The notes under the pieces are model-generated. The model saw only the letters and a program-made list of their open reading frames with translations. It was not told the DNA's origin and made no database searches. Positions 11,214-12,406 of a DNA stretch of 64,000 nt are shown here, one piece after another (within the stretch, counting starts at the first letter, position 1; every line of letters starts with the position of its first letter). The DNA is from Paucisalibacillus globulus (GTDB lineage: Bacteria; Bacillota; Bacilli; Bacillales; Amphibacillaceae), in assembly GCF_900184735.1 (NCBI RefSeq), contig NZ_LT855386.1:456988-520987 (forward strand). Reading direction: 5' to 3'. A program made the translations under genes and the position numbers.

Positions 11214-11375
11214 GTAGTTCTGGTGTAATGAAAGTTTATTTCTAATAGTATTACAGGGTAGTCTTTTGTATTTCAACAAAACTAGTCCTTTTTCTCAACA
11301 CAATGTGACAACCTTTATATGTAATATCTGATATTATGGTGAAAATAATGAATAATTAGAGTTGGGAGAGGCGAC

Positions 11376-12206
11376 ATGGAGAGAATTTTTGGACCATTTA
11401 GAATAGATACGGACTTTTCTGATAGACAACAATCGATTATTGCTGAACAACAGAAGGATGACATATGTTTTTATCGTTTTATCGGTGGAAATCCAAGCGA
11501 GACACAAGAGCTACCCAAACAACTCCAATCACTAAGGGAAAGAAAACCCCTTCTAATTGGCGTCTTTCGATTTCCATTTCGATTTGAAGGTAAAAGAAGA
11601 CAAATGACAGCTAGAGAGCAGTATTTTATAATGAAAGAATTCTGTGATGCGGTCATTTTCTTTGACAGTGAAGGACTGATGGAAACTATTGATCCATCAA
11701 CACCAATCCATGAAGCAAGAGAAGTATTTGATACAATTGAAGAACTAACAATAAAAGCGCTAAGGGAAATGATTGACGAAACCGGTAAAGTAAATATAGA
11801 TTATCAAGATGTTAAGGCATTTATTTATCAGAATAGATGTCCTTTATTCTTACATACTATTGAAGGAAGAAATTTTGATGAACCGTTAAAACATTTAATT
11901 CAAACACCATATTTACCAACTGACTTTACCGAGGCTGAACAACTTATCCTAAATATTGGATACACACGAGATGTAGACATGGAAACATTTAGACAAATCA
12001 ACTTACGACTAAATGATTTATTCGATAAAGCAGAGTTATTTAAGATAGGTTCTTATTTTATGGACGAGCCTGGACAGCGGTTCAAAATCACAATGCTTGT
12101 AAATGGGCTGAGTGATCCGGTTAAAATGCCTGAAGAAGAAAAGAATAAGCCTTCTTCAAGTAAATATAGAAATTTTATTCGGAAATGGTTGGTAGAAAAT
12201 CGTTAG
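11376..12206 (+). CDS. FtsZ-like protein lacking the GTP-binding domain
   Basis: A 276-residue protein that aligns by eye with the second half of FtsZ. Residues 58-78 (LLIGVFRFPFRFEGKRRQMT) match FtsZ LTVGVVTRPFTFEGRKRQLQ; 86-112 match the helix with MKE...D...TP..EA; G137-K147 (GKVNIDYQDVK) match the T7 loop GLINLDFADVK and keep N140, D142 and D145, the NxDxxD residues that complete GTP hydrolysis in the neighbouring subunit; 170-245 match the C-terminal domain. The FtsZ G-loop GGGTGTG is replaced by GGNPSET (37-43), and the first ~90 residues of the nucleotide domain are missing, so it should not bind GTP. An acidic linker leads to a basic C-terminal peptide (KYRNFIRKWLVENR) reminiscent of the FtsZ tail. 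Monocistronic, GGGAG site. Function unknown. Confidence 0.75.
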   Translation: MERIFGPFRIDTDFSDRQQSIIAEQQKDDICFYRFIGGNPSETQELPKQLQSLRERKPLLIGVFRFPFRFEGKRRQMTAREQYFIMKEFCDAVIFFDSEGLMETIDPSTPIHEAREVFDTIEELTIKALREMIDETGKVNIDYQDVKAFIYQNRCPLFLHTIEGRNFDEPLKHLIQTPYLPTDFTEAEQLILNIGYTRDVDMETFRQINLRLNDLFDKAELFKIGSYFMDEPGQRFKITMLVNGLSDPVKMPEEEKNKPSSSKYRNFIRKWLVENR

Positions 12207-12319: not shown

Positions 12320-12406
12320 ATGAAAGATAAAAAGAAAAAACATAAAAGCAAAAAGGAACTTAACGAGATGAAAGGTAAGGTAAGATACCCTAAAAACAGA
12401 CAATAA
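12320..12406 (+). CDS. Small lysine-rich peptide (28 aa)
   Basis: A short reading frame behind AAGGAGGG at good spacing encodes MKDKKKKHKSKKELNEMKGK... ending in RYPKNRQ, and it is followed by a strong terminator. The combination of ribosome site, position and terminator supports translation. The very basic composition resembles small nucleic-acid-associated peptides of Bacillaceae. Function unknown. Confidence 0.5.
   Translation: MKDKKKKHKSKKELNEMKGKVRYPKNRQ

Follow-up and report, generated by a model that had tools for sequence, protein, structure and literature searches.

A halved FtsZ paralogue with a sirA-like promoter block as a probable regulator of FtsZ at the onset of sporulation

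A review lists as an open question how cells entering sporulation block medial division and favour the polar septum (PMC6126333). On the structural side, within the FtsZ filament, H10 of the top subunit contacts H6-H7 of the bottom one, S9 contacts T5, H8 contacts T3 and T7 contacts H1/H2, and, in the model presented there, the end that exposes T7 grows while the nucleotide-bearing end shrinks (PMC8936486). In S. aureus FtsZ (SaFtsZ), the substitutions N208L, D210N, D213N and R143Q suppress assembly, and D210 together with D213 holds the precatalytic water (PMC8936486). On the regulatory side, SirA of B. subtilis is ‘produced under Spo0A~P regulation’ (PMC4285326). The 0A core recognized in that organism is TGTCGAA, in which G2, C4 and G5 are contacted; many true Spo0A targets are near-consensus, and a C4A change weakened binding about 10-fold at the promoter tested (PMC3485338).

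Here, we set beside these systems a gene from a window of 64,000 nucleotides, namely the whole stretch of Paucisalibacillus globulus DNA that was analysed (positions 456,988 to 520,987 of contig NZ_LT855386.1). It is an open reading frame with an ATG start that codes for a protein of 276 residues, which we term half-FtsZ. The features of the gene and of the region preceding it are collected in Table 1.

Table 1. Features of half-ftsZ and its promoter region, in window coordinates.
Feature	Position	Strand	Basis
Upstream box TTCAACAAAACTAGT	11272..11286	.	Reverse complement contains TGTTGAA, which differs from the 0A core TGTCGAA at one position
Second box-like half site CAACA, 10 bp before TGACA	11296..11300	.	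Sequence
TGACA (-35-like)	11306..11310	+	Composite scan
TATTAT (-10-like), 21 nt after TGACA	11332..11337	+	Spacing
RBS-like GGGAGAGG, upstream of the half-FtsZ start	11364..11371		
half-FtsZ gene (276 aa, predicted pseudo-GTPase)	11376..12206	+	ORF, TIGR00065, PDB FtsZ, Foldseek
Degraded T4 loop G38-N39-P40-S41-E42-T43-Q44, replacing GGGTGTG	11487..11507	+	Column map
Retained T5 loop and R75 (P67...R75; FtsZ P135...R143)	11574..11600	+	Lowest mean column entropy
T7 synergy loop N140-I141-D142-x-x-D145	11793..11810	+	Alignment conservation
H10 helix 202-216, family-specific	11979..12023	+	Entropy, invariants
Basic C-terminal tail 249-276 with amphipathic helix	12120..12203	+	Charge, hydrophobic moment

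Half-FtsZ is a true homologue of FtsZ, far beyond chance. The TIGR00065 ftsZ profile matches residues 53-257 (E 9.9e-21), and the best PDB match found with phmmer is S. aureus FtsZ (E 2.3e-17), residues 96-319 of which align with residues 25-247 of half-FtsZ; the alignment along the second half of FtsZ, which the initial annotation had drawn by eye, is thus borne out by both searches. The TIGR00065 score of 74.4 bits lies below the equivalog cut-off of 295.2, the Pfam models Tubulin (20.2 bits, cut-off 33) and FtsZ_C (15.8 bits, cut-off 27) stay below their thresholds, and identity to 21 FtsZ rows is 20-26%. We obtained two AlphaFold2 models, one from 18 family rows only (model 1; pLDDT 60.8, pTM 0.59) and one from 35 family and 21 FtsZ rows (model 2; pLDDT 82.8, pTM 0.79). 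For both, the best 50 PDB matches listed by Foldseek are all FtsZ entries, with best E-values of 4.4e-12 for the model without FtsZ rows and 5.1e-18 for the one with them, which is the outcome in favour of FtsZ that a profile or Foldseek search had been proposed to reveal; the former is the more independent test of the fold, with modest confidence, and Foldseek uses sequence too. The predicted structure contains the FtsZ-type fold of the activation domain, and the TIGR00065, phmmer and Foldseek matches together place half-FtsZ in the FtsZ/tubulin superfamily by homology over the core fold.

The most conspicuous departure from FtsZ lies in the nucleotide pocket. An earlier claim that the first ~90 residues are gone and the G-loop replaced stands with a refinement: FtsZ residues 1 to about 91 are absent, with about 23 variable residues in their place, and T1, T2, T3, H1 and H2 have no counterpart. 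The T4 loop of FtsZ (GGGTGTG, residues 106-112) aligns with G38-Q44 (GNPSETQ), where the first of the five glycines alone is kept (35/35 members) and, of the threonines, the second (T43) in 32/35; G37 and G38 are both invariant in all 35. Among the FtsZ residues that we take to be guanine contacts, N166 is replaced by S or G, F183 mostly by N, H, Q or R, and the position of D187 is mixed, with D in 10 of the 35. The companion claim, that GTP binding is lost, agrees with this degradation but has to be set against the retention of T5: P67, F68, F70, E71 and G72 are kept, along with R75, the equivalent of FtsZ R143. E71 (FtsZ E139) is found in 35/35 members and R75 in 34/35, and the mean column entropy of T5 (0.28) is the lowest of the elements compared in the family, with element borders drawn from the predicted model and from FtsZ anatomy. 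These patterns support the view that half-FtsZ has probably lost its own GTP site, though the pocket is incompletely erased, T5 and R75 having stayed.

The opposite, bottom face tells a different story. N140, D142 and D145, which the initial annotation had singled out as kept residues of the T7 loop, align with N208, D210 and D213 of the FtsZ of the same genome, whose numbering coincides with that of S. aureus FtsZ at these three positions and at R143. All three are invariant in 35/35 half-FtsZ members and in 21/21 of the aligned FtsZ rows; hence, the NxDxxD signature, whose conservation across the family had been put forward as a check, does not vary in its Asp residues. The joint alignment of 35 half-FtsZ and 21 FtsZ sequences has 12 invariant columns only, the three T7 residues included. 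Of the 53 columns invariant in FtsZ, 30 are lost in half-FtsZ (kept in at most 3/35) and 12 are kept in 35/35, and the presence of all three T7 residues in the kept set has a hypergeometric p of 0.009 in a test that ignores relatedness. Over the whole loop, the mean entropy is 0.79 in half-FtsZ versus 0.40 in FtsZ, with only N, I, D and D fixed. Plain folding fails to explain this conservation because D210N SaFtsZ still folds, as seen in PDB entry 7oja, which is among the Foldseek matches listed.

Next to T5 in degree of constraint is H10, a helix of the bottom face, with a mean entropy of 0.53 in half-FtsZ (the second lowest element) versus 1.48 in FtsZ; its invariants are M202, R211, D214 and F216, with K218 just beyond the helix. 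The start of H8, a bottom-face element of FtsZ (G233-E234-N235-R236), is replaced and one residue shorter, so the interface is no plain copy of that of FtsZ. The H6-H7 region (97-110) shows no special conservation (entropy 1.37). In all, 35 columns are invariant across the 35 members, and the family-specific invariant residues include R65, Q82, Y83, E122, Y179, K218, K223, D247 and P248. The C-terminal peptide of FtsZ is absent, and a mostly basic tail of variable sequence (entropy 2.27) is found instead. In the window protein it has a net charge of +4 and a best 12-residue hydrophobic moment of 0.66 (a value given without control tails); across the family, the net charge is +3 to +9 in 34/35 members and -1 in one, and the best moment ranges from 0.47 to 0.83 over the 35, again without a control. 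Residue 270 is K in 32/35 and R in 3/35, and W271 is present in 29/35.

Half-FtsZ occurs beside a normal ftsZ in 11/11 genomes of the genus and is found in 18/159 genomes of the family, which bears on the question, raised beforehand, of how many genomes carry it besides their ordinary ftsZ. Further afield, it is present in 19/397 genomes of the order sample, three of which belong to that family too, in 3/398 of the class sample (the P. globulus genome included) and, in the phylum sample of 249 genomes, in that genome only. Carriers with names are Paucisalibacillus globulus, Paucisalibacillus sp. EB02 and Bacillus litorisediminis; the protein is no speciality of Bacillus, the carriers being spread over eight families. 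With the half-FtsZ profile, the two other class-sample members score 1.3e-101 or better, and the best non-own match in the phylum sample (E 2.1e-24) is a full-length FtsZ in a 392-residue frame; the profile search of the 249 phylum genomes revealed no intermediates between half- and full-length FtsZ.

Phylogenetically, the 35 proteins form one clade with 100/100 support on a long stem, with 4.1 and 4.6 changes per column on the two sides of a midpoint root, placed for display only, between the half-FtsZ and FtsZ clades. The gene is one open frame in 35/36 members. In the remaining genome (G156; locus L069, 5267-6119) it is split into two ORFs by a broken frame or a sequencing error, and this copy was omitted from the protein counts, giving n = 35; its promoter block is matched without mismatch. 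The dN/dS ratio is 0.044/0.622 (~0.07) for the window gene versus L053 and 0.090/0.962 (~0.09) for L053 versus L054, the only two pairs with dS below 1, all others being above 1 or saturated. Half-FtsZ is therefore no relic: it is a conserved single clade under purifying selection.

Neighbour clustering yielded no firm operon partner, as even the most frequent neighbours are found again in at most 8 of the 36 loci. A small membrane-protein family, presumably DUF421/YetF-like, lies near half-ftsZ in 8/36 loci from three families and is directly adjacent in three of these loci, perhaps by chance synteny. Just downstream of half-ftsZ in the window (12320-12406) is a lysine-rich ORF of 28 residues with an RBS-like AAGGAGG, for which no Pfam match was found. 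Plasmid and phage origins were considered and rejected: the plasmid matches listed (20 of 90) and the 20 phage matches are at most 28% identical to half-FtsZ and canonical-FtsZ-like. PADLOC gave no match for the protein and PHROGs a single one at E 0.13; the viral fold library gave five at E <= 0.001, which are phage FtsZ/tubulins where named. Six phage records (Enterococcus/Listeria) hold ftsZ-like sequence and may be host contigs.

The promoter region offers a pointer to when half-FtsZ may be made. A composite TTCNACAAAASTAGT-N19/20-TGACA-N21-TATAAT, scored at no more than 5 mismatches of 25, precedes half-ftsZ in 32/36 members, with exactly 21 nt between TGACA and TATAAT in all 32; among 337 other genes of the same loci, it was matched once, with different spacing. 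Four members lack it (L072, L074, L081 and L086). Such a long TGACA-TATAAT spacer resembles that of the Spo0A-activated spoIIG promoter. In the P. globulus genome (3.92 Mb), ACAAAACTAGT-N19-TGACA has two perfect matches, which are the promoters of half-ftsZ and of sirA; there are none at one mismatch, and 61 at three or fewer compared with 44 in the reversed control. Patterns for LexA, SigB, SigH, SigF, ECF and other generic promoters gave no consistent match at half-ftsZ. The sirA gene was recognized by the SirA model PF10747 (E 3.7e-28) and adjoins transketolase-like and CcdA-like genes, as named from sequence. What had been a guess at a role during sporulation thereby gains promoter evidence, in the form of a block common to half-ftsZ and sirA.

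Across the 11 genomes of the genus, there are 18 exact TTCNACAAAACTAGT sites, nine upstream of half-ftsZ, eight upstream of sirA (genes assigned by their resemblance to the copy that PF10747 recognized) and one upstream of a 33-residue ORF. If one mismatch is allowed, the 11 genomes hold 90 sites for the box, compared with 27 for the reversed control. Because one-mismatch sites precede other genes, the two-gene picture is limited to the strict pattern: of the six such sites in the P. globulus genome, one precedes the 33-residue ORF and the rest other or no clear genes. This lysine-rich ORF (MKDKQKNKQKE...NGPNRPST type; L178 3001-3100, L163, L168 and L177) has a TTCGACAAAACTAG(A/T) box, with a second ACAAAACTAGT about 25 bp beyond it in three of the four loci; it has no Pfam match and is possibly another member of the half-ftsZ/sirA regulon. 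SirA is also encoded in 26 of the 28 further carrier genomes. The two without it (G551 and G557) are class-sample genomes from outside the order, one of which (locus L087) retains the promoter composite while the other (L086) is without it. The sirA promoters of the other carriers match the composite at up to 5 mismatches in 17/26 cases, with spacers of 19-21 before TATAAT, and do not in 9/26 (control, 1/331). Since these 17 promoters keep CGACAAAA in 15 cases and ACTAGT in only 3, the 0A-like part is the common element.

This directs attention to Spo0A. Read on the reverse strand, the box is ACTAGTTTTGTCGAA at the sirA promoters of the genus and mostly ACTAGTTTTGT(T/A)GAA at half-ftsZ, which accordingly has mostly T or A at the C4 position of the 0A core (one mismatch, TGTTGAA, in the window). 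A perfect TTTGTCGAA stands in the block before sirA in 8/8 genus genomes shown. Further, CTCGACATAACTAGT is present in the spoIIGA promoters of 3/3 genomes looked at, separated from TGACA by some 30 nt instead of 19, where we take spoIIGA to be the gene placed after ftsZ and before the sigma-factor genes; in these three promoter regions ACTAGT occurs twice, once within CTCGACATAACTAGT. The ACTAGT palindrome falls outside the published 0A core and may be either a lineage-specific extension of the 0A box or the site of a second factor. The co-occurrence of spo0A with half-ftsZ is uninformative, since spo0A is found in all 18 family carriers and also in 137/141 non-carriers, half-ftsZ being absent from most of the spo0A-bearing genomes of the family. 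On the strength of the shared promoter elements, we consider Spo0A the likely binder of the half-ftsZ box.

As T7 is conserved and the protein's own pocket is mostly gone, a partner that bears a pocket is needed, and the only other PF00091 match in the genome is ftsZ (5.6e-55). We infer from these patterns that the partner is FtsZ; Spo0A as the binder and the sign of the effect are inferences as well. The reading that we place at an even chance is that half-FtsZ is a truncated, pocket-less FtsZ paralogue that would be induced by Spo0A~P as sporulation begins and would end or trap FtsZ through T7 and H10. More specifically, the protein would be incapable of building a normal protofilament alone; its conserved bottom face (N140, D142 and D145 of T7, with H10) would meet the GTP-bearing top face of FtsZ, capping filaments at the nucleotide-bearing end or sequestering GTP-bound monomers, and its T7 Asp pair could supply what the terminal active site lacks and trigger GTP hydrolysis there. 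Overall, Z-filaments would be shortened or dissolved as medial division gives way to the thin polar septum, which would help to end the former or to thin the polar ring, while the regulon mate SirA would halt DNA replication. The initial annotation had proposed that docking caps filament growth; this is probably wrong, as the nucleotide face is the slow end according to the account in PMC8936486, and because the T7-exposing end is the one that grows, docking on the nucleotide face implies a slow-end cap or a GTP-monomer trap. The ends are not named consistently, in that MciZ is said in a review to cap the ‘minus’ end (PMC6126333) and yet binds the T7 side. An end cap or a monomer trap appears the most likely action on the Z-ring, and half-FtsZ is probably a regulator of FtsZ at sporulation onset that was itself derived from FtsZ.

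Certain observations sit uneasily with this proposal and feed its rivals. The conservation of T5 and R75 on the top face would be superfluous for a pure bottom-face cap. It is what one would expect of a two-sided poison subunit that enters FtsZ filaments by both its bottom face and its T5/R75 top face and breaks them at weak joints: T5 has the lowest entropy of the elements compared, with E71 and R75 nearly or fully invariant, and T5 contacts S9 of the neighbour in FtsZ (PMC8936486). Yet most of the top face (T1-T3, H1 and H2) is missing and the H6-H7 region shows no special conservation, making such a subunit improbable. A further alternative retains the cap's geometry and reverses its sign, with half-FtsZ as a nucleator or anchor that is no inhibitor, offering its T7/H10 bottom face to the first GTP-FtsZ, holding the slow end at the membrane by its tail and promoting polar rings. 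Gamma-tubulin at microtubule minus ends is a loose parallel. The replacement of the FtsZ C-terminal peptide by a mostly basic, amphipathic tail (judged without a control) with conserved K/R270 and W271 speaks for an anchor, as does the nucleotide end being the slow end and so a natural site for one (PMC8936486). The tail sequence is variable, however, and the retained T7 Asp residues could let the first interface hydrolyse GTP, which would suit a terminator better; we regard the nucleator as unlikely.

It could also be that FtsZ is no longer the target, and that the half-fold was recruited for another early sporulation protein with T7 in a new use, as the long stem between the clades and the many family-specific invariant residues would allow; but the three catalytic and interface residues of T7 are retained exactly in 35/35 members, which is difficult to account for unless some partner bears GTP, and we hold this alternative to be quite unlikely. 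The regulator might likewise be other than Spo0A, in which case the timing would be other than sporulation onset. Here, the departures of the half-ftsZ box from the 0A core at C4 (mostly TGT(T/A)GAA), the location of ACTAGT outside that core, whereby it could belong to another regulator, and the differing box distance at spoIIGA weigh against our preferred assignment, as does the lack of the composite in 4/36 half-ftsZ and 9/26 sirA promoters. The same block, however, precedes sirA with the perfect 0A-like element throughout the genus genomes shown, and it is this element, rather than ACTAGT, that persists in the sirA promoters of other carriers; a different regulator is accordingly rather unlikely. 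Finally, a decaying, functionless ftsZ duplicate might be suspected from the truncation relative to FtsZ and the broken frame in G156, but it is contradicted by the open frames in 35/36 members, the fully supported clade, the low dN/dS ratios and the 35 invariant columns, and its probability is next to nil.

Returning to the proposed Spo0A-dependent control of FtsZ, a broader formulation may be ventured, at slightly less than even chance: the halved FtsZ would be a dedicated, Spo0A-induced sporulation regulator that combines a T7/H10 GTPase trigger with an end cap or a membrane-bound anchor, such that one regulon would simultaneously stop DnaA through SirA and re-set the Z-ring. It would have evolved by the halving of FtsZ itself in some members of one order of spore-formers along with scattered relatives in the class. 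If true, half-FtsZ, with its promoter of the Spo0A type, would stand as a direct candidate explanation of the medial-to-polar switch in the carriers. Since the parts that it retains should make it bind the nucleotide-bearing end, it would also serve as a naturally occurring, end-specific probe of the polarity of FtsZ filaments. With it one could ask, in a natural setting, whether the two T7 Asp residues alone, provided in trans, fire the FtsZ GTPase. Isolated FtsZ domains may have a dominant-negative effect; within the open PMC literature, we found no report of an isolated FtsZ half blocking division. The earlier remark that no described protein of this make-up was known in Bacillus agrees with our finding no description of half-FtsZ in that literature, a scope outside which most subscription papers and preprints fall. 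Surveys based on the N-terminal tubulin domain would tend to miss such proteins, as PF00091 scores half-FtsZ below its cut-off, and the available text of a superfamily survey that searched with this model names no half-FtsZ group (PMC9871819).

Compared with known systems, half-FtsZ shares with canonical FtsZ (TIGR00065; the S. aureus and B. subtilis structures) the fold from S3/S4 through the whole activation domain, T5 and the N-x-D-x-x-D of T7, but is without the T1-T3, H1, H2, intact T4 and C-terminal peptide of the latter, and its H10 is newly conserved. TubZ, CetZ and the artubulins are likewise paralogues within the tubulin/FtsZ superfamily and, unlike what is predicted for half-FtsZ, are active GTPases. 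FtsZl1 and FtsZl2 resemble it as additional families of the FtsZ superfamily that exist beside a normal FtsZ (PMC2875224). FtsZl1, however, is described as keeping the GTP core while neither T6-H7 nor a C-terminal domain like that of FtsZ can be recognised, half-FtsZ being the opposite truncation, and FtsZl2 as keeping every conserved motif of the GTP domain, with T1, T4, T6 and T7 all present, plus a C-terminal region of about 300 residues (PMC2875224), as against a missing T1, a degraded T4 and a total of 276 residues in half-FtsZ. The nearest in role, though not in kind, is MciZ of B. subtilis, which provides dedicated sporulation-time control of FtsZ by filament capping; it is a 4 kDa, sigma-E-dependent protein (PMC6126333) that binds the bottom face of FtsZ (PMC8936486). 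MciZ is above the Pfam cut-off in 2/159 family genomes, neither of them a carrier, with a 37-position model that can miss divergent copies, and its near absence from the whole family permits no conclusion on mutual exclusion with half-FtsZ. In contrast to MciZ, half-FtsZ is a 276-residue FtsZ paralogue with a Spo0A-like promoter and is predicted to bind the top face. SirA acts on DnaA and has a fold unrelated to that of half-FtsZ. What links SirA (PF10747), a cell-cycle brake of sporulation (PMC4285326), to half-FtsZ is the promoter block common to their genes.
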